Part shown: piece by piece, positions 29,175 to 42,130 of the stretch
Layout: each line of letters begins with the position of its first letter
Numbering within the stretch: the stretch's first letter is position 1
Source: Desmonostoc geniculatum HA4340-LM1
GTDB taxonomy: Bacteria > Cyanobacteriota > Cyanobacteriia > Cyanobacteriales > Nostocaceae
Direction of reading: 5' to 3'
Assembly: GCA_019359545.1 (NCBI GenBank)
Contig: JAHHHB010000012.1
Coordinates: 1-64,000 of the forward strand
DNA: 64,000 nucleotides
Notes under the pieces: generated by a model
What the model saw: only the letters and a program-made list of their open reading frames with translations
Told to the model about the DNA's origin: nothing
Databases searched by the model: none
Made by a program: the position numbers and the translations under genes

Positions 29175-30137
29175 ATGTCATTTACCCTCCAGTCGGCTCA
29201 AAGTATCTTTCCCGGCACCTTAATTGCTGACATTGTTCCGTCTGTCGTTGAATCTTTTAGTCAGCTTAACGCTGAAGATCAACTAGCATTACTTTGGTTT
29301 GCCTACACCGAAATGGGTAAATCGATTACCGTTGCGGCTCCGGGGGCTGCGAACATGATCCTCGCCCAAGGGCTTTTAGAACAAATTAAGCAGATGCCTT
29401 TTGATGCTCAGACACAAGTGATGTATGATTTGGCCAATCGTGCTGATACTCCCATCTGCCGTTCCTATGCATCCTTCACCGTAAACATCAAATTGGGCTT
29501 CTGGTATCAATTAGGAGAATGGATGGCTCAGGGAATTGTCGCTCCCATACCACCGGGTTACAAGCTTTCTTCTAAAGCTGCTCAAGTGCTGCAAGCAATC
29601 CGAGGTGCCGATCCAGGTCAACAAATTACCATCCTACGGAATACCGTAGTCAGTATGGGATTTGACCCCAACGCTCCTGGTAGTTACAAAAAAGTCTCAG
29701 AGCCTGTGGCTCCTCCCATTGCACAAGCATTTCGGACTAAGGTCACCATTGAGGGCACCGACAATCCTACTGTGTTGGGCTACATCAACAACATGAACGC
29801 CAATGACTTTGACAGTGCAGTTGCTCTGTTTAGCTCCGAAGGCGCCCTGCAACCTCCCTTTGAAAGACCAATTGTTGGTCAGGAGGCAATCCGCGCTTAT
29901 ATGCGTGAAGAATGCCAGGGATTGAAGATGATGCCAGAGCGCGGTGTATCTGAGCCAGTGGAAGATGGCTATACTCAAGTTAAAGTCACCGGTAAAGTCC
30001 AAAGCCCCTGGTTCGGTGCGAGTGTAGGGATGAACATTGCATGGCGGTTTTTGATAGATCCCCAAGGCAAAATCTTCTTCGTAGCGATTGACTTGCTGGC
30101 TTCTCCTAAAGAACTCTTGAACTTAGTACGTAAATAG
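29175..30137 (+). CDS. ocp: Orange carotenoid protein
   Basis: A 320-residue blue-light photoreceptor that quenches phycobilisome excitation. The N-terminal carotenoid domain (about 15-165) has Trp41, Tyr44 and Trp110, and Arg155 of the interdomain salt bridge. The C-terminal NTF2-like domain (about 195-318) has Tyr203 and Trp290, which hydrogen-bond the keto-carotenoid carbonyl. The linker is two residues longer than in Synechocystis OCP. Position 101, a Trp in Synechocystis, is Phe here. No gene for the fluorescence recovery protein is seen within the window, unlike many ocp loci. A hairpin at 30165-30207 follows the stop. Confidence 0.96.
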   Translation: MSFTLQSAQSIFPGTLIADIVPSVVESFSQLNAEDQLALLWFAYTEMGKSITVAAPGAANMILAQGLLEQIKQMPFDAQTQVMYDLANRADTPICRSYASFTVNIKLGFWYQLGEWMAQGIVAPIPPGYKLSSKAAQVLQAIRGADPGQQITILRNTVVSMGFDPNAPGSYKKVSEPVAPPIAQAFRTKVTIEGTDNPTVLGYINNMNANDFDSAVALFSSEGALQPPFERPIVGQEAIRAYMREECQGLKMMPERGVSEPVEDGYTQVKVTGKVQSPWFGASVGMNIAWRFLIDPQGKIFFVAIDLLASPKELLNLVRK

Positions 30138-33161: not shown

Positions 33162-33210
33162 TGCGATGTTTGGATTTTGAGATTTGGTGATAAAGGGCGA
33201 TCGCAATACC

Positions 33211-36200
33211 CTAACCTTCTTGAGAAAGAATTAAATTCAGTACATTTAATTCGTGAGAAATTAAAATGTATTTGTCTGTAAAAATCTTTTTCCTAATCTC
33301 ATTTAGACTATAACTTCTAAAAATAACAAATGGAAAATCTCTGTATTTGTGACCAATTGGCATAATGTTGCCAACTGGATACATAGACTGTATGTAAGTA
33401 GCCAGAATATCCCGAAACCTTTGGTCTTCAGGTTCTTCACAATTGTTGGAAAAATATTCGGCGATCGCCTCACCACTAATAAAGGTAAATAAGGGCAATG
33501 CATAATATTGGTCAAAGTGGTGGCTATGCTGCTCAAACCTTTGTGTTTTATGAGGTTTTTCCTGCAACATATTTACTAAATCTATTGCCTCATTGATAGT
33601 AGAACGGAGACTCTCTGGAGATTTAGGGTTGCGACTAATTTCATACATTTTATCCAAAAAACCATCGTTATTATTGATAATTTTCTGTTCCAGCCGAAGT
33701 TTGTATTTTTCCTCTATCGTTTTACCTACAATAGGAACAACTAACAAACTACCACTAATATAACCAGTTTCAATAGGAGTAAAATCTAGTAAACCATCAA
33801 AACCATTATTGACCAATTTCAAAAATTTAGAAGTTAATGATTCTCGTAGGGAAAGATATGAAATCTCCTGCAAATTATCAGAGGACGTTTCATCTCTCAA
33901 AACTATTTCTGCTTGACTTAGCAGCTGCTTTAAACTCAAGTAAACTTCCTGTAACTGCTGATCGTTATGCCGCCTGTCGTATTCTTTCTTTAACTGTTTA
34001 ATTAATGTATCCATCTTACTACTGAAAGTCTGACCAGCAGCGAAAACAGATTTTCCTCCTATAGGAATCATGATGAATTTCTCCCGACCTATCTGCCAAG
34101 ATCCAGAAATTCTGGTCATGATAGATGTCTTTAAAATCAGTAAAATATTTAAAAGACTTAGCTTGCTTTCTTGTAAAGAATGCTCCTGATCATTGGTGTA
34201 ATACACAGCTTGCTCAGACAAGTAAAAAATTAACTCTTTGTCCTCACCGTCTATTGTCTTATCTCCACGACCTCTATAAATAACTTGAATAATTTCCATC
34301 AAGTTTTTTTCAATCTCAAATCGAGGGATATCAACTAAGATATGCTTTGTTTTGGGAAATGATAGCCCTCTACTAGCCGAGGCGGTCATAAAGACAACCT
34401 TCACGTTATTTTTGTACTGATTTATTTCTTTTTTTTCTTGTTCTGAAAGATTTGCGTGAATCTCCAAGTAATCATGATGATACTGGAATTCTCTGCGACG
34501 CTCCTTAATTTTATTAATTAAGTCAGCTAATCTAGGTTTGTCTTGAATGTATACAATAACTTGCCCAGCGGATGGGTTTTCTAAAAATAAATTTATATCC
34601 TCTAAAATCTGATTTTGAACACGCGACTCTAAATTTTTATGGCGAATTTTAAAATATTCTTGACTAAATTTAATAGACTCTATAAATACTTTATATGTTA
34701 TGTTTAAGCTTTTCGCAGGGTAAGAGTTGGCATTGATGACAGTTGCATTTAGACTATTAAATGTGAATTGTTCCATTGATAGTGGTGAACAATCCCCTAC
34801 TGCCTTTCTAAAAAAAATTTTGTTGGGTTCAGCAGATGTTTCTGATAGATGCTGTTTTATAATATTTGAATCCACAATCGAAGCGTCTGCTACGATAACC
34901 TTAGTATTAAATCCATGTTTGTCATCAGTTAAACCGTAAGTTCGCAAAATTCTAGTAATTCCATTTAAAAATTCAACACCACTATCATCTCCTGTGATTT
35001 CATCGATCATAATAACTAAATTTTTTATCCTACTAGATATAAGTTTTATCTTAGAAGGAATTACTAAACCCTCACTTTCGTTATAGCTATCTTTGAAGAT
35101 TTTCTCAAAATGATGTAATGTGTCTTTTCCACTTTGTGTTTTCTTCAATGACTGGATAGAAACTGTTGCTACAATATTATTAGATATTTTTCTGTTAATA
35201 ATCGTGTAAATCGCTTCACAAATGCTATCTAAAACACCCCGATTATTTAAACCTACCTCTTGAATCAAATCTTCCGTAATTTGCTTGAGGTTGCTTCTCA
35301 AGAATTTATCTTGGTCTACTTCTACTCGTTGATTGATAAAATTGACTGTCTGTTCTGTAAAATTGTCTGTTCGCAAATTAGAGAGAAAATGCACACTATA
35401 TTTGCCAGCATTATTTTTTATAATTTCGGTATTTGTGTTGATAGTAAATATTTTATCACTAGACAGTAACTTAGTATCTTCGTTTGTGAACTTATCAATA
35501 ATGTCTAAGTTTACTTGTTTTCTAGGACTAACATAGAAGAACAAAAAACCTTCATCAAGACAATTCTGGCTTTGAAGAAATTCTGCGATCGCTGTAGTTT
35601 TGCCAATACCAGGATTACCTGTTAAAAATATATAAGTTACATTAGAATTTAGTGCTTTTTGAATTAGCTCTGCATGAGCATCTCTTAAAGTAGACTGTGG
35701 CTTAACTTGCAACTGTGTCGCTAAATTTGGTGGGATAATATCTATAGAGTTAAAAAATCCCTCCACGCGTTCGTGATGATGTACAAGGTTTATACCATCT
35801 CCTGAAAGTTCTAGAAGTCGATTGATAAACTCTCTTCCTTTTTCAAAACTTATAGCTGCATTTTGTTTAATTAAATTTAAAACTTTCTTGCGAGCTTCTT
35901 TGATATCTTGATTGCTAGAATTTTGCTTGTATATCTGGGAACAGGTTGCTAAAAAATCTAAATTGTCCTTATTCACAGACACAGCACTAATAGAGCGATC
36001 GCTATAACCGACTACATTAAATATAATTGAAATCTCATCTGTTAGTAAAGCTTGGGAATGTAAAAATTCATAGAAGCTATGAGCATAACTAGCAGCTTGA
36101 ATCAACTTTATGCTCTCTTTGTCCTCTCGCTTAAATGCTGTAAAGTAATGTGCCAAATCTGAGGAAAAATTAATTCCTGAACTTTTTGTATCTAAACCTA

Positions 36201-36849
36201 AGTTAGAGAAAATGCTTTTCGACTTTAAATAACTAATTTCGCTTAACAATAAATTACGTAGCACTTCAATATTGTTTACATCTACCAAATCTCTAATTGA
36301 TTTGATATAAAATACAGAAAGATCGACACATATAACTCTTAATTGTTGAGAATAGCGGAATAAAATTAAGGTGTCTGCATTTAAAAACTCTCCCTTTCCT
36401 GAATATTTGCCAATATCAAATTCTGAGTTGCCAAACTGTGATAGTACATCTTTAAAAGCCTGCTCTTTGCCTTTTGTATGAGTTCCTATACTATTTTCAT
36501 CAGAAAAACAACATTGATAGTAAACAATTTCTAAACGCTTTAGCTGACTTTTGTTCCAACCTGTTGATTGAATATACTCATTTAAGAAGTTTAACCCCGC
36601 CAAAAATCCTTTTTGCAAGAAAAAGGTACTCCATTTAGCAACAATTTCTCTATGTTGTTCGCTAATAACTCTTTCTTGATCGGCAAGTCGCCTAAGCATT
36701 TTGGGAAAACTCAGCTTTTGTAAATCATGAGTGTATAAATCTCCAAAGTGGTGAGTTAGCTGATTTTGCTTAATATATGCAAGTATCCCGACATTAAAAC
36801 CTACTTCAAACACTCGCCCTAAATCCTGACCTAAATTATCTTGTGCCAT
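33211..36849 (-). CDS. Large SF2-type helicase, unrecognised accessory system
   Basis: 1212 residues. The N-terminal third (1-390) has no recognised domain. A helicase core follows: Walker A FLTGNPGIGKTTAIAEF at about 408-424, a motif Ia-like FFYVSPRKQVNLDI, Walker B LVIMIDEITGDDS at about 612-624, a motif III-like IVADAS, a second RecA-like domain beginning QVIVYIQDKPRLADLI, motif V FMTASASRGLSF and motif VI QVIYRGRGDK (Arg fingers) at about 853-862. The C-terminal 350 residues are unassigned. It starts 2 nt after the stop of the 1012-residue gene, indicating translational coupling. The DNA is visibly more AT-rich than the surrounding photosynthesis genes, fitting horizontal acquisition. It does not match a defence system I can name. 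Confidence 0.85.
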   Translation of the reverse strand: MAQDNLGQDLGRVFEVGFNVGILAYIKQNQLTHHFGDLYTHDLQKLSFPKMLRRLADQERVISEQHREIVAKWSTFFLQKGFLAGLNFLNEYIQSTGWNKSQLKRLEIVYYQCCFSDENSIGTHTKGKEQAFKDVLSQFGNSEFDIGKYSGKGEFLNADTLILFRYSQQLRVICVDLSVFYIKSIRDLVDVNNIEVLRNLLLSEISYLKSKSIFSNLGLDTKSSGINFSSDLAHYFTAFKREDKESIKLIQAASYAHSFYEFLHSQALLTDEISIIFNVVGYSDRSISAVSVNKDNLDFLATCSQIYKQNSSNQDIKEARKKVLNLIKQNAAISFEKGREFINRLLELSGDGINLVHHHERVEGFFNSIDIIPPNLATQLQVKPQSTLRDAHAELIQKALNSNVTYIFLTGNPGIGKTTAIAEFLQSQNCLDEGFLFFYVSPRKQVNLDIIDKFTNEDTKLLSSDKIFTINTNTEIIKNNAGKYSVHFLSNLRTDNFTEQTVNFINQRVEVDQDKFLRSNLKQITEDLIQEVGLNNRGVLDSICEAIYTIINRKISNNIVATVSIQSLKKTQSGKDTLHHFEKIFKDSYNESEGLVIPSKIKLISSRIKNLVIMIDEITGDDSGVEFLNGITRILRTYGLTDDKHGFNTKVIVADASIVDSNIIKQHLSETSAEPNKIFFRKAVGDCSPLSMEQFTFNSLNATVINANSYPAKSLNITYKVFIESIKFSQEYFKIRHKNLESRVQNQILEDINLFLENPSAGQVIVYIQDKPRLADLINKIKERRREFQYHHDYLEIHANLSEQEKKEINQYKNNVKVVFMTASASRGLSFPKTKHILVDIPRFEIEKNLMEIIQVIYRGRGDKTIDGEDKELIFYLSEQAVYYTNDQEHSLQESKLSLLNILLILKTSIMTRISGSWQIGREKFIMIPIGGKSVFAAGQTFSSKMDTLIKQLKKEYDRRHNDQQLQEVYLSLKQLLSQAEIVLRDETSSDNLQEISYLSLRESLTSKFLKLVNNGFDGLLDFTPIETGYISGSLLVVPIVGKTIEEKYKLRLEQKIINNNDGFLDKMYEISRNPKSPESLRSTINEAIDLVNMLQEKPHKTQRFEQHSHHFDQYYALPLFTFISGEAIAEYFSNNCEEPEDQRFRDILATYIQSMYPVGNIMPIGHKYRDFPFVIFRSYSLNEIRKKIFTDKYILISHELNVLNLILSQEG

Positions 36850-36851
36850 GT

Positions 36852-39800
36852 TTATTTGTTCTCTAACTTCACGTTTAAAGCTTTTCTAACTTCTGTCAAA
36901 AATGCCAAAAGATTAAAGTTAACTTTGCCTGTCATGTGATTAAAGATAGACAAAGCCCCCACAGAATAATTTCCTATGATGTTCTGATATGGATCGAGCT
37001 TTAAGCTGATATTTCTGTCTTTCCTGGGAGCAGCTTCATACTGCGAAAAGTGGAAAAGTGTCAAATATTGTAAAAGATCATTTTTCAAGGTACTATTATC
37101 AATTAACCCAGTGTATATATCTGTGTCATCTAAAATATCTTTATAAATGTTTAGTAAAGTAGCATAGGAAATAACGCCATTATAATAGCGGTCATCACCA
37201 GGTACAGTAATTCCATTAAATAAGTTAAAAAACACGACTGCTTTTTTGCTAGGATCTTCTACTAAGCTCGTCAATTCTGATGTATCTTGAATATACAAAG
37301 AGCTTGCATTTAGAGTTCTCAGCTTGACAACATAATATTGATCAAAAAATACTGGGTATATTTTAATATCATCTCGATTTCCTTTCAAAGAACTAATCAG
37401 AGGCTTGGACATGAAAAATAATTTTTCATCATCGTCACTCCTAGTCATATTTAAAGTATTGGAATAGGGAGACTTAGCAATATATAAAAAGTGTCTGTAT
37501 CCTTTTTGATAAAGATTATCTACCTCGTCTATTAGTACTAGAGGCTCAGTATACATATTCTGGCTGGTGTAATTATCAGAAAAAGTTTTAAATTTATATA
37601 GACGAATACTACCGTCTGGTTGGCGATCTACTCCAAAGACTTCACCCAATAAATTGGATATTTTATAATCGTCACCCTTGGCGCGATCGCTTTCCCGACT
37701 GGAAACCACAATAATTGCTAGCTTCTCCAATTGGGGAGAGTGAGAATTATCATTAAACTTAAATTTTTTGGGAAGTACAGAATACAGGGAACTTAAACCA
37801 TTGCGAATTTTAAATTTATTGATATTCTTAATACAGAATCCTTGAGAATTAGAACGATGCTCATCATTAAGAAGATGAGACAAACCTGCAAACAGCGATA
37901 GCATGAATTCTTCTTCCGGTGAAGAGTCTTGCTTGTCAGTCAAATGTAGTCGCAAGATCGGGATAAATAACTTGCGTTTGGAAGAGTCAAGTAAAATTTT
38001 TAGACACGTATAAGCAAGCAATGAGAAAGTAAATCTATAAATAAAAGCCTGTGGAGAGTCTACATTGTTAAAAATCTGCTCTCTTAGACGTTGATAATTA
38101 TAAGTAAATTCTAAGAGCTTTTGCTCTTTAAAGTTGTTTTCAGAAATTCTTTGACAATTTTGTTCTTGAGGTCTGAGAAGCACGGGAATAACCTGGATCT
38201 TTCTGATGTCATACTCCATACTGAAAGTTTGACTATCTTCGGTAGAGAAATATTCAATGTCGCTGATATTAATGCTTGCTGATAGATTACACAAAGAACT
38301 AGTATCAACGCTTGAACTTCCAACAGATATATACTTTAATGCTTGTTTGAGACTAGGCTGTAAGACTGGTTTGAATAAAGTCTGGTGATTACGAATAGTG
38401 TTGATATCCCGCTGTAAAATGCCTTGTTTTACACTAATATGAATAGGATATGTTCTTGGCTGAAAAGAATCCTTTTTCAATAGTTTTTGCAGCAAATCCT
38501 TGAGTTTGTCTATTTTATCGTTGACTTTATATTGCTCTAAACCATTTTTGATACTCCGAAAACGCCTTTGTTTGTCTGTATCACTAGAACCTTTAAAAAA
38601 AGGAAGTACATTTTTGTCAAATACACTGATGGGGTCATATCCTAAATCTGAATTAGGAGTATAACTATCTAATGTTGGATCGTTGCTAGCAAATACAAAA
38701 AAATATAAAAATGCTATCTTAAAAACTTTTTCTATAAAAAATTGGCTTCTAAAAGTATCATCAATTCCTTTTTTATGTTCTGGATTATTTGAATCTAGTA
38801 AATTCAGATAATATTCAAAAACAGAAATACCTCCTTGGGACTGGACTTTGCCATCAAACTTAAGTTTGAGTCCAAATATAAACTGCTGCTTTCCCTGTTT
38901 TTCATCTGTTGTTTCTCCTAAGTAACCTACTATTAAAGGAATAATAGGTAGCATATCAAAGGCATCAGCACGAGAAAAAAGCTCTCGATAGTTAACTGAC
39001 CTTCCTGCATAATTCACCTCATAATGTCCATCTTCTTTTTCAGGATCGCTGATATAATCCTCTATTAATCTTAAACGACGGATCAGGTCTTCTAAATAAA
39101 TAACATCCTTATTTGTGTCAGCATTTTCTTTGAGAAAGTCCAAATACTGAATTTTTGCTTCTCTCTGGAGTTTTCCAATAGCTTCTGTATCCATCAAACG
39201 CTTGACATGGTAATAATCAGACTTAGGGTTTGCTGCTAAATCATCTAGAATATCATTGAGTTCTTGACGATCGCTTTCAGCCTCAGAACTAAACTCAATA
39301 TTAATAAAGTTTTGTAAACTTGCTTTTAACTGGGAGTCAAAAACGCGGGTATTCTCCACTGTGATTGTTAGCTTGTGAAACTTCAATAATGGATTACTAG
39401 TAGATTTAGCTTTTTCTAGGCTCAATCTTTGCTTTTGTAAACCTGGATATTGTTCTGTAAATGGATAAGTAAAACTTAAAGAAGTTTTGGTTTCACCTGC
39501 AAAACTAGTTAAATCTGTGGCTAAATCTGCAACATATTGCTCTATATTTATTCCTGGTATTACCTGAGAAAGGACAAATTCTAGATGCTTGCTCAAAGTA
39601 TCTCGGATTTCCTTAACTAGATTGATGAAAGAGTTTTTTGAAGCCTTACTAAAATTAATACTTGCTGACTTAGCAATACTCGCAGAACTTCCTAAGGGAT
39701 TCTCAACTTGCAACGACGAAGCTACCTGAAAAGCTATTTCGTCAATATTAATGAGCAATCGATTGATATCTGTTGAAATACTAAACGGGTTTTGAGATTG

Positions 39801-39890
39801 GTGATTTTGCAGGACTGTTAAAATCTTAGTCAGCAAATCACTGTAATCTAAGGAGACTAGTCCGTTACTACCCTCTTCTAAAGTATTCAT
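36852..39890 (-). CDS. 1012-residue protein coupled to the helicase, no recognised domain
   Basis: A large soluble protein, first gene of the pair with the SF2 helicase; its TAA is 2 nt from the helicase ATG. No signal peptide or membrane helix. The N-terminal 300 residues are helical; the middle is mixed. In the C-terminal third, LEKLAIIVVSSRESD (about 715-730) and TEPLVLIDEVDNLYQKGYRHF (about 775-797) form hydrophobic strands ending in acidic residues, like the edges of a nucleotide-binding or RNase H-like fold. No Walker A motif is present, so LIDEVD is not proof of an ATPase. I do not recognise the family; a role as nuclease or nucleic-acid-binding partner of the helicase is inference only. 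Confidence 0.8.
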   Translation of the reverse strand: MNTLEEGSNGLVSLDYSDLLTKILTVLQNHQSQNPFSISTDINRLLINIDEIAFQVASSLQVENPLGSSASIAKSASINFSKASKNSFINLVKEIRDTLSKHLEFVLSQVIPGINIEQYVADLATDLTSFAGETKTSLSFTYPFTEQYPGLQKQRLSLEKAKSTSNPLLKFHKLTITVENTRVFDSQLKASLQNFINIEFSSEAESDRQELNDILDDLAANPKSDYYHVKRLMDTEAIGKLQREAKIQYLDFLKENADTNKDVIYLEDLIRRLRLIEDYISDPEKEDGHYEVNYAGRSVNYRELFSRADAFDMLPIIPLIVGYLGETTDEKQGKQQFIFGLKLKFDGKVQSQGGISVFEYYLNLLDSNNPEHKKGIDDTFRSQFFIEKVFKIAFLYFFVFASNDPTLDSYTPNSDLGYDPISVFDKNVLPFFKGSSDTDKQRRFRSIKNGLEQYKVNDKIDKLKDLLQKLLKKDSFQPRTYPIHISVKQGILQRDINTIRNHQTLFKPVLQPSLKQALKYISVGSSSVDTSSLCNLSASINISDIEYFSTEDSQTFSMEYDIRKIQVIPVLLRPQEQNCQRISENNFKEQKLLEFTYNYQRLREQIFNNVDSPQAFIYRFTFSLLAYTCLKILLDSSKRKLFIPILRLHLTDKQDSSPEEEFMLSLFAGLSHLLNDEHRSNSQGFCIKNINKFKIRNGLSSLYSVLPKKFKFNDNSHSPQLEKLAIIVVSSRESDRAKGDDYKISNLLGEVFGVDRQPDGSIRLYKFKTFSDNYTSQNMYTEPLVLIDEVDNLYQKGYRHFLYIAKSPYSNTLNMTRSDDDEKLFFMSKPLISSLKGNRDDIKIYPVFFDQYYVVKLRTLNASSLYIQDTSELTSLVEDPSKKAVVFFNLFNGITVPGDDRYYNGVISYATLLNIYKDILDDTDIYTGLIDNSTLKNDLLQYLTLFHFSQYEAAPRKDRNISLKLDPYQNIIGNYSVGALSIFNHMTGKVNFNLLAFLTEVRKALNVKLENK

Positions 39891-40109
39891 TCTATTTACT
39901 CCTAGTCGTCTTTAATAGTACTAATGGAATTACTTAGTATAACCTTTCAGTTCTACTGATGACTATCAGTCAGTAGAACTTATTTTCAAGTAATCGCACT
40001 TCATTTTTTGATGTAAATACTGTAAGGTGCGATCGCTCTCCATCATCTCCAAAACGCGATCGCACCCCACACACCACTAAACTAGAAAGTAAGATGTCGG
40101 GATAAGTCT

Positions 40110-40697
40110 ATGAACGCTACTACAATCGCCTTACCTTCTATCCTCAAACTAAAAATTGATTTGAGCGATGAACAATTTTTCCAAATGTGTCAGAAAAACC
40201 GCGATTATCGATTTGAACGTACAGCATCAGGAGAAATATTAATTATGCCACCTACGGGTAGTGATACTGGCAGACGTAATGTTAAAATTACCACTCAATT
40301 GGATATTTGGAATTCTGAGAGTAATTTAGGCGAAGTTTTTGACTCTTCAACAGGTTTCACCCTACCCAATGGTGCAGAACGTTCTCCCGATGCTTCCTGG
40401 GTGAAAATTGAGCGATGGAATGCTTTAACCCCAGAACAACAAGAAAAATTTGCCCCGATTTGTCCTGATTTTGTAGTTGAGTTACGTTCTCCCAGTGATT
40501 CTCTAAAAGATTTGCAGGAGAAAATGCAAGAATATATCGAAAATGGCGCTCAATTAGGTTGGTTAATCGACCGAAAAAACAAGCGAGTAGAAATCTATCG
40601 TCCAGGCAAAGATGTAGAAATATTAAACAATCCTACTAGTTTATCAGGGGAAAATGTTTTACCTGGATTTGTGTTGAATTTACAAGATATTATGTAG
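40110..40697 (+). CDS. Uma2 family endonuclease-like protein (DUF820)
   Basis: 195 residues of the Uma2/DUF820 family, a PD-(D/E)XK-fold group hugely expanded in cyanobacteria. Visible are the family's DYRFERTASGEILIMPPTG entry, RSPDASWV (Asp), the PDFVVELRSPSDSL core strand with Glu, and WLIDRKNKRVEIYRPG near the end. The catalytic arrangement looks intact, but no biological role is proven for the family. It lies on the plus strand between two minus-strand genes of the accessory block, 2 nt short of the end of the convergent 476-residue gene. Confidence 0.88.
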   Translation: MNATTIALPSILKLKIDLSDEQFFQMCQKNRDYRFERTASGEILIMPPTGSDTGRRNVKITTQLDIWNSESNLGEVFDSSTGFTLPNGAERSPDASWVKIERWNALTPEQQEKFAPICPDFVVELRSPSDSLKDLQEKMQEYIENGAQLGWLIDRKNKRVEIYRPGKDVEILNNPTSLSGENVLPGFVLNLQDIM

Positions 40698-40699
40698 CT

Positions 40700-42130
40700 T
40701 TATTGATTAAGATATACATGGCGCATTTCAAAGCGACTCTGTTTCCAAAGTGGTTGCAAAGCTTGTTGAGCAGCATTTAACTGAGCTTGAGAGAAACTAA
40801 TTTTTCCATTTTCTATTATCCAAATAAAAGTCCGAGTTATCAAATCTGCATTGAAACTATTTTCATATTTACTATGATTTATTCTTGCTACTTGTTCATC
40901 TAAGCAATTCATCGCATATTTAAAATTCCAGTGTATAGAATTACTAGGGATTTCTTCTTGTGCATTTTTCCATTTAATCCTCAGCAAATTTCTCATAATA
41001 TAGTCTATGCCTGTTATGGCAGAATCAGTATTCCGGATCAAATCTGTAAATGCTTGATAATAAAATTGCAAGAGTGAAGCAGCAATATTTTCCCTATATA
41101 TATGTAACCAGGACTGGATATCACGAAGATAAGGTAATAAATCTCTAATATGATTTATTTCTTTTATTTGCACGCGTAGCTTGCCGCCGTAGGCATCGCC
41201 TTTATAATTTATGATTTCAGCTAGTAATTCAGCTTCAGATAATTGAAACTTGTCTAAATAATAACTAATAACTTTAGGAATATATTTATCCAATAACCAC
41301 TGCTTAGTATATCTAGCTGTCCAGGTTCCCCGTAGACCGATGTCTTGCTGCCAAGAAGTGACTTTGCCTCTTTCAAGAGATTGCAAATAAACATCATTTA
41401 TTTTATATATGATATTAATTTTATAATTAGGTAATAATGAAAAATCACTATCAACTCTGGGCAAGATAAATGCATGATCGCGAATTCCTCGACTCACTCG
41501 AATTGAGATATCTTCATTATGAAATAAATGCCATTCTGACTTGCCTTTACTATAATCAAATTCATCAGCGAACTGCTGCATTAATTTCCATAGTTTTTGT
41601 CCTACAGAAAACAATATAAAACCTCGAACATTTGCAACATCTATAAATTCAAAATCCCAGGTTTCTAGAGAATTTTCAAATTCAATTATTGATTTCCTGT
41701 ATTCTTGACAAACTGCATCAACACACAAACACAAATCTAATGTTTCTAATTCCGATAAAATAAATGTTGTTTTGCCTAAATTTACTTCAAAAGTATTTTG
41801 ATTTAGCTGTTTCAAAAACCGACGGCAACCCCAATCTGCTTGGGTGTTTATTCCAGTCATTAATTGACCCAAAATATCTTGATGGTTTAAGCTTATTTTC
41901 AGACCTCTTAGAATGATGTTGCTGAAGTCTATTTCACAATTACCTTCTGCAAAAGCTTGGGGTAAATTACAGGCGATCGCTACTTTTGGTTGCACAACAA
42001 CCAAGCGGTTACCTTCTCGCTTAGTTAAAGGCTCAAAATTACATGTTTCTAAAATATCCTGTAAATCTGGGTGGCGTCTTATAATTTTTTCTATTAAATT
42101 ATATTTAGTATTTATCGAAATATTACTCAT
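40700..42130 (-). CDS. 476-residue protein of unknown function
   Basis: A soluble protein without signal peptide, membrane helix or recognisable catalytic motif. The N-terminal part (1-130) has a beta-rich pattern (NRLVVVQPKVAIACNLP; NTFEVNLGKTTFILSELETLD). The rest is helical and rich in aromatic and basic residues (DIQSWLHIYRENIAASLLQFYYQAFTDL). AT-rich codon use resembles the helicase pair downstream on the same strand, from which it is separated by a Uma2 gene in opposite orientation. It may belong to the same accessory block; function unknown. Confidence 0.7.
   Translation of the reverse strand: MSNISINTKYNLIEKIIRRHPDLQDILETCNFEPLTKREGNRLVVVQPKVAIACNLPQAFAEGNCEIDFSNIILRGLKISLNHQDILGQLMTGINTQADWGCRRFLKQLNQNTFEVNLGKTTFILSELETLDLCLCVDAVCQEYRKSIIEFENSLETWDFEFIDVANVRGFILFSVGQKLWKLMQQFADEFDYSKGKSEWHLFHNEDISIRVSRGIRDHAFILPRVDSDFSLLPNYKINIIYKINDVYLQSLERGKVTSWQQDIGLRGTWTARYTKQWLLDKYIPKVISYYLDKFQLSEAELLAEIINYKGDAYGGKLRVQIKEINHIRDLLPYLRDIQSWLHIYRENIAASLLQFYYQAFTDLIRNTDSAITGIDYIMRNLLRIKWKNAQEEIPSNSIHWNFKYAMNCLDEQVARINHSKYENSFNADLITRTFIWIIENGKISFSQAQLNAAQQALQPLWKQSRFEMRHVYLNQ

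Follow-up and report, generated by a model that had tools for sequence, protein, structure and literature searches.

A candidate two-gene Argonaute-helicase defense system in the cyanobacterium Desmonostoc geniculatum

In the first 64,000 nucleotides of contig JAHHHB010000012.1 of Desmonostoc geniculatum HA4340-LM1 (the whole stretch analyzed here, called the window) two very large genes lie side by side on the minus strand, the first encoding a protein of 1012 amino acids (aa), named BIG in the following, and the second a helicase of superfamily 2 (SF2) with 1212 aa. By structure prediction BIG has the MID-PIWI fold of Argonaute proteins, and the pair is probably a guided defense against foreign DNA. 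Taking the results of our analysis together, we favor with fair but by no means full confidence the interpretation that both genes form an Argonaute-helicase immune system, which would work in a similar way as DdmDE and ApsAB and is built differently.

Organization of the gene pair

The first-pass annotation of this DNA had described two very large genes separated by 2 nt and AT-rich in comparison with their neighbors, one of them a helicase with all core motifs and the other a protein without any recognized domain. Both open reading frames (ORFs) were recovered as described, with BIG located upstream and a spacing of 2 nt between them. The GC content across the pair is 0.32-0.35 (2-kb windows) compared with 0.37-0.51 in the rest of the window, which confirms the AT-richness, although the low-GC stretch extends past the pair to about 43 kb and takes in a Uma2 gene and a 476-aa gene. 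The layout of the two genes is as follows:

36852..39890, minus strand: BIG, first gene of the pair, 1012 aa, ATG start; predicted Argonaute/PIWI fold (AlphaFold, Foldseek, VIA)
38214..39890, minus strand: N-terminal lobe of BIG, residues 1-559; aligned to Argonautes from about residue 153 (VIA)
37755..38213, minus strand: MID-like domain of BIG, about residues 560-712, with Q683-G684; putative boundaries from secondary structure
36873..37733, minus strand: PIWI (RNase H-fold) domain of BIG, about residues 720-1006; putative boundaries
33211..36849, minus strand: SF2 helicase, second gene of the pair, 1212 aa, ATG start; PF00271
35974..36402, minus strand: RecB/Cas4-like domain of the helicase, residues 150-292; signature conserved in 116 relatives, family name inferred
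33970..35712, minus strand: helicase core, residues 380-960; GNPGIGKT 411-418, DEIT 616-619, DAS 655-657, RG 827-828, QVIYRGRG 855-862
33211..33969, minus strand: C-terminal extension of the helicase, residues 961-1212; without conserved (D/E)xK nuclease motif

BIG is predicted to adopt an Argonaute fold

At the level of sequence the statement that the first protein has no recognized domain still stands. BIG has no Pfam or PADLOC match and nothing among the PDB sequences at E <= 1, and its sole NCBIfam match, PylB (E 0.024, 13.5 bits versus a cut-off of 348), is at chance level. In addition, 18 diverse relatives gave no PADLOC match at 0.05 and matched eight Pfam families, each in a single member and without any consistency, and neither BIG nor one of these relatives matches PF02171 or the prokaryotic Argonaute (pAgo) models of PADLOC. 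The structural models, which were calculated with AlphaFold (AF2) for both proteins, correct this picture. The model of BIG has a predicted local distance difference test (pLDDT) score of 85.4 and a predicted template modeling (pTM) score of 0.83, and its top matches in Foldseek and VIA searches belong to Argonaute/PIWI proteins, apart from one Mediator chain. Many of the model ranges aligned by VIA start at residues 143-173 and end near residue 1003, and residues 1-150 have no assignment.

Conservation was counted over 104 unique relatives of BIG and 116 unique relatives of the helicase. In the MID domain Q683 is kept in 102/104 and G684 in all relatives of BIG, and H947 and P967 of the PIWI domain are invariant. 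The positions of the catalytic tetrad were mapped via secondary structure and strand order, without superposition, which places the first Asp at 730/731, the third at 806 and the fourth at about 971/972; at these putative sites Asp occurs in 0/104 relatives. As far as the tetrad can be mapped, BIG seems to be devoid of it, and due to the missing Asp residues BIG alone should not cut. Arg is kept at R732 in 82/104 and Glu at E952 in 88/104 relatives, and these two residues may or may not correspond to the conserved R and E on the beta-sheet extension of pPIWI-RE proteins.

A nuclease-like domain accompanies the SF2 helicase core of the second protein

The 1212-aa protein belongs to the SF2 helicases and contains Helicase_C as well as motifs I, II, V and VI. 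It matches PF00271 (Helicase_C) with an E value of 1.8e-6, which is above the cut-off, together with weak AAA matches, and the same family is matched by 17/17 members of a diverse helicase alignment at E <= 0.01; only generic helicase, AAA and P-loop families recur among these 17 proteins in Pfam. Walker A, DE, RG and QxxYRxRG are invariant in 116/116 relatives, which bears out the earlier assignment of a helicase with all core motifs, and fold searches with the AF2 model (pLDDT 82.7) return SF2 helicases. Its sole PADLOC match, to mad8 (E 0.0039, 14.8 bits, residues 406-618), was set aside as weak and confined to the P-loop half of the core.

Furthermore, the N-terminal part of the helicase contains a signature, G153-x5-D159 ... 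(D/E)176-x-S178 ... K244-x3-K248-x2-Q251-x3-Y255, which is invariant or nearly so among the relatives, with D159, (D/E)176 and QxxxY each present in 116/116. The model displays a strand-strand-helices-strand order over this region, and the conserved domain resembles a PD-(D/E)XK nuclease. At the other end of the 116 helicases, in residues 930-1212, no (D/E)xK column pair was found at a level of at least 60%.

Both genes are coupled and co-evolve

Neither gene is a chance ORF: within the same order, BIG is conserved over its full length (41-61% identity) in further genera and families, and the same applies to the helicase. Of 244 evenly sampled cyanobacterial genomes 33 match BIG (E <= 0.001), some of these matches being fragments, weak distant matches or stop-bearing copies. 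A 17-row helicase alignment was scanned against genome contigs and the best 80 of 250 relatives (L058-L137), which include Ktedonobacter (Chloroflexota), were analyzed. The coupling is strict: 71 of these 80 loci hold both genes, invariably with a copy of the Argonaute-fold gene on the same strand upstream of the helicase. Of the nine loci without an Argonaute-fold gene six start directly at a contig end or close to it, and the remaining three (L094, L100, L126) are orphans. Where each gene is present as a single ORF (63 loci), the gap is at most 100 nt in 41, and 22 of these overlap. The distance matrices of BIG and helicase correlate with r = 0.981 over 71 ordered pairs, to which near-identical relatives contribute, and none of 500 permutations reached this value.

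The gene order is the same whether the pair is found in cyanobacteria, in Chloroflexota or on plasmids of proteobacteria. Distant pairs are located on plasmids of Acinetobacter, Acetobacter and Cupriavidus, and the same pair is carried by a contig of 167441 bases from the genus of the window (G264, contig C4), which we infer to be the Nostoc plasmid pNPM2. In Chloroflexota a long helicase match is present in 9/301 genomes, whereas 25 genomes match at E <= 0.001 if short matches, mostly to the P-loop, are included. In 3/80 loci, which belong to one clade, two full-length and divergent Argonaute-fold genes (48-49% identical) flank one helicase (L060:511-10213 and L131:4969-14659 from Microcoleaceae, L064:4957-14668 from a cyanobacterium).

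Within the genus of the window 24 of 53 genomes contain a relative of the helicase at E <= 0.001, distributed over several classes (about 45%, 38% and 27% identity) and fragments, and the window is the only member of the genus with the full-length class of about 60% identity. In the helicase tree, which was calculated by a quick method with Shimodaira-Hasegawa-like approximate likelihood ratio test (SH-aLRT) support only, the window groups at support 100 with other families (G157, G121, Prochloraceae, Crocosphaera) and not with its own. This placement in combination with the pattern within the genus indicates that the pair arrived horizontally in this genome. A remnant of 146 residues, 65% identical to the C terminus of the window helicase, was observed in another genome (G274, contig C43:11700-12137) at a distance of 0.8 kb from a copy of the 476-aa gene.

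The chromosomal site and neighboring genes

The pair occupies a slot between a DICT/GAF histidine kinase gene on one side and the Uma2 gene together with the 476-aa gene on the other. These flanks are kept in four sister genomes with a DNA identity of 93-97% (G257 and G256), 85-94% (G265) and 83-91% (G254), and the slot contains a different cargo in each of them, so that 0 of the four sites are empty:

Window 33184..40022, no strand: variable-site block; flank matches end at 33162-33183 and restart at 40023-40056 (edges approximate)
L170:2960-7280: 773-aa pAgo (Piwi E 9.5e-16, PADLOC pAgo_II E=0) and two ImmA/IrrE genes
L171:4076-5569: DUF559-type gene
L172:4162-8329: Xre, ImmA, Cas4-like nuclease (PADLOC E 1.9e-141) and 737-aa pAgo_II (E=0)
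L173:3218-5399: carotenoid-protein-like gene, 70% identical to the one in the window at 29175-30137; name assigned by eye

Due to the pAgo operons in L170 and L172, a canonical Argonaute module is located at the site of the pair in two of the four sister genomes. In the window genome (G000) no PF02171 match was found at E <= 0.001.

Several neighbors were considered as additional genes of the system and rejected. The Uma2 gene (40110-40697) and the 476-aa gene (40700-42130) belong to the conserved flank, and the latter has no relative in the 80 loci. Uma2 is a common family, and relatives occur near the pair in 5/80 loci (L059, L061, L062, L075, L103). A 348-aa ORF after the Acetobacter pair turned out to be the C-terminal part of its helicase, which has been split off. 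In Acinetobacter an HNH gene comes after the pair in locus L025 but not in L027; the region L025:13585-15585 adjoining this pair contains the HNH endonuclease gene and a WYL-domain gene.

For the plasmid-borne pairs we compared 51 neighbors of at least 150 aa on six plasmids with PADLOC (E <= 1e-20), and MkoA/MkoB, Hhe, PDC-S37, PDC-S01 and PDC-S04 are among the matches listed. On the putative pNPM2, where four neighbor proteins were chosen by eye, MkoA (8.8e-214) and MkoB (4e-67) are located about 4.7 kb from the pair.

No Rfam family was detected at the window pair, and in seven relatives with long intergenic gaps Rfam matched only group II introns, which are located in L115 and not within its gap. 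The long gaps contain tandem repeats or filler common only to close relatives, and the idea of an encoded guide RNA was dropped on these grounds. In two Okeania loci the gap holds repeated fragments of the helicase 5' end with a spacing of about 662 nt (L108:5774-7956) and units of about 126 nt over 3 kb (L130:4320-7421), respectively. Elsewhere in the window, at 224-296 on the minus strand, ARAGORN labeled a tRNA-like gene with the anticodon CTA as tRNA-Pyl (Rfam tRNA, 47 bits); this tRNA would read the amber codon.

Proposed mechanism

We propose that BIG, which is predicted to have an Argonaute fold comprising MID and PIWI domains and should not cut alone, binds a short guide, whose 5' end would sit in the pocket of the MID domain around Q683-G684, and that this guide may pair with nucleic acid of plasmids, phages or transposons. 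BIG would then recruit the SF2 helicase, which we assume because of the strict gene coupling and the co-evolution, and the helicase would unwind the target or translocate along it. In the last and least certain step the N-terminal nuclease-like domain might cut by means of a displaced lysine (K244/K248); alternatively this domain may be dead and host nucleases could complete the degradation. The first-pass annotation had suspected an undescribed coupled system with a likely role against mobile elements, and this is in line with the predicted fold, the patchy presence, the plasmid carriage, the horizontal transfer and the Argonaute operons at the sister sites.

There are also observations which weigh against a guided immune system. 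In 17/80 loci the pair has purQ in its vicinity, which it follows directly in 13 of them, and in 19 others it is close to pheT (both genes named by eye); these positions are fixed inside two cyanobacterial clades, as would be the case for a vertically kept gene. Taken together, the pair is near a housekeeping gene in 36/80 loci, none of which belongs to both sets, and this counts in part against the reading of the first-pass annotation. The three orphans mentioned above are intact helicases with no Argonaute-fold gene within 8 kb upstream, viral contigs and, in a search with the Acinetobacter helicase, phage records yielded no relative, and two of the four sister sites (L171, L173) hold no Argonaute. 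The defense genes near the plasmid pairs were counted without a matched set for comparison, and their list is inflated by generic kinase models. Regarding the two proteins, the usual Lys of PD-(D/E)XK nucleases is replaced by Ser/Thr in 116/116 helicases (S178 in the window), and BIG has conserved acidic residues in the strands of its PIWI domain (D735 in 98/104, E750 in 94/104), which, given that the tetrad was mapped by secondary structure, makes an unusual active center possible. A link to Argonautes at the level of sequence was not found, as a comparison of BIG with profiles of cyanobacterial pAgo and PIWI-RE proteins by hhalign did not score above shuffles; the positive control (pAgo versus PIWI-RE) failed too.

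If our interpretation is correct, a large unannotated branch would be added to Argonaute-based immunity, partnerships of Argonaute and helicase would recur with differing architectures, and a recurrent pair of hypothetical protein and helicase would be explained, providing a guided helicase for further study. It is possible that the system also bears on the resistance of filamentous cyanobacteria to plasmids and transformation.

Alternative explanations and comparison with known systems

The positions near purQ and pheT, a helicase tree that we read as largely taxonomic within clades, and the influence that pAgos and PIWI-RE proteins can have on replication or cell division according to two reports (one of them PMC10991935) would fit a factor for the maintenance of the host genome, which resolves R-loops or replication-transcription conflicts and is vertically kept in filamentous cyanobacteria. 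We consider this improbable, as such a factor is difficult to reconcile with a presence in 33/244 genomes of the phylum, partly in decayed form, with plasmid copies and an occurrence in three phyla, with the several unrelated classes and fragments in 24/53 genomes of the window genus, and with sister genomes that carry other genes at the site, twice Argonaute operons. We likewise regard it as improbable that the Argonaute fold serves as a guide-free scaffold, as may be the case in Med13, and responds to a structure, for example a replication intermediate, with the helicase acting as ATPase sensor or as effector of abortive infection.

The pair might also be an outlying, diverged branch of the ApsAB family itself. 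In Escherichia coli ST38 this antiplasmid system consists of the Argonaute-like ApsB and the helicase-nuclease ApsA, and a recruitment directed by ApsB has been proposed; ApsA has a C-terminal PD-(D/E)XK domain (D...DVK), and ApsB is described in the available part of the report with the MID motif Y[X]3K[X]nQG[X]nK and reportedly has no PIWI RNase H fold (PMC11096173). Both systems combine an Argonaute-like protein with a helicase/nuclease, the QG of the MID motif is invariant or nearly so in the BIG relatives, two Acinetobacter and one Acetobacter relative even match Y-x3-K-xn-QG, and the same source mentions ApsAB-like systems in cyanobacteria. As ApsAB was compared by its description only, an overlap between these cyanobacterial systems and our pair is possible. 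On the other hand, the C-terminal part of the window helicase has no conserved (D/E)xK, which is the place of the nuclease in ApsA, and the nuclease-like signature is N-terminal instead. Moreover, the Y-x3-K before QG is missing in 101/104 relatives and in the window, which has A668-x3-H672, and the model of BIG has the PIWI fold that ApsB is reported to lack. Therefore, we regard a membership in the ApsAB family as rather unlikely.

The DdmDE system of Vibrio cholerae offers a second comparison. According to the available parts of the reports (PMC12409362, PMC12904381), DdmE is a catalytically inactive Argonaute that brings in DdmD, an SF2 helicase-nuclease. Both systems consist of two genes, one for an Argonaute and one for an SF2 helicase that carries a nuclease-type domain, and the inactive Argonaute may have a counterpart in BIG with its Argonaute fold and the absence of Asp at the putative tetrad sites, although D735 and E750 are conserved. 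In addition, a WYL-domain gene is described upstream of ddmDE (PMC12409362, available part), and such a gene also lies beside one Acinetobacter pair (L025). In contrast, the PD-(D/E)XK domain is C-terminal in DdmD, as far as described there, while the signature of the window helicase is N-terminal and without the Lys. DdmD or DdmE is named nowhere among the matches listed in the Foldseek and VIA fold searches, which excludes nothing, and no match with these names was found in PADLOC or the PDB chains, libraries whose content was not checked for them. As the C-terminal nuclease and the full MID motif of ApsB are missing, we did not assign the pair to DdmDE or ApsAB.

The pPIWI-RE system is similar in that a divergent PIWI-fold protein is encoded together with a helicase and a function with restriction endonuclease (REase) fold. 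It is composed of three genes (REase, DinG helicase and pPIWI-RE) in the accessible description (PMC3702460), whereas the pair has two with the Argonaute-fold gene first. PF13032 (RNaseH_pPIWI_RE) has no match in the window genome at E <= 0.001, and 2/117 genomes match; the genomes with the pair do not, as far as they are among the matches listed. In three Chloroflexota genomes (G401, G425, G441) the pair and a PF13032 pPIWI-RE protein were observed at separate places of each genome. The canonical pAgo operons in L170 and L172 share the Argonaute fold and the slot with the pair, in L172 with a Cas4-like PD-(D/E)XK partner, but their proteins match PF02171 and PADLOC pAgo_II, and BIG matches neither.

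The pair is named nowhere in PADLOC, Pfam or NCBIfam, and no description was found in the open PubMed Central literature at title and abstract level. As BIG is predicted to have the Argonaute fold, the kind of system, an Argonaute combined with a helicase, is already known from DdmDE and ApsAB, and it appears that the lineage and the architecture of the pair are new. With more caution we put forward the tentative idea that it might represent a third independent Argonaute-helicase lineage, which is distributed over Cyanobacteriota, Chloroflexota and plasmids of proteobacteria. In this lineage an Argonaute without tetrad would direct a helicase with an N-terminal nuclease domain, whose catalytic lysine would have left the strand for the helix behind it (K244/K248), and in some Microcoleaceae two divergent Argonautes would be used with one helicase.

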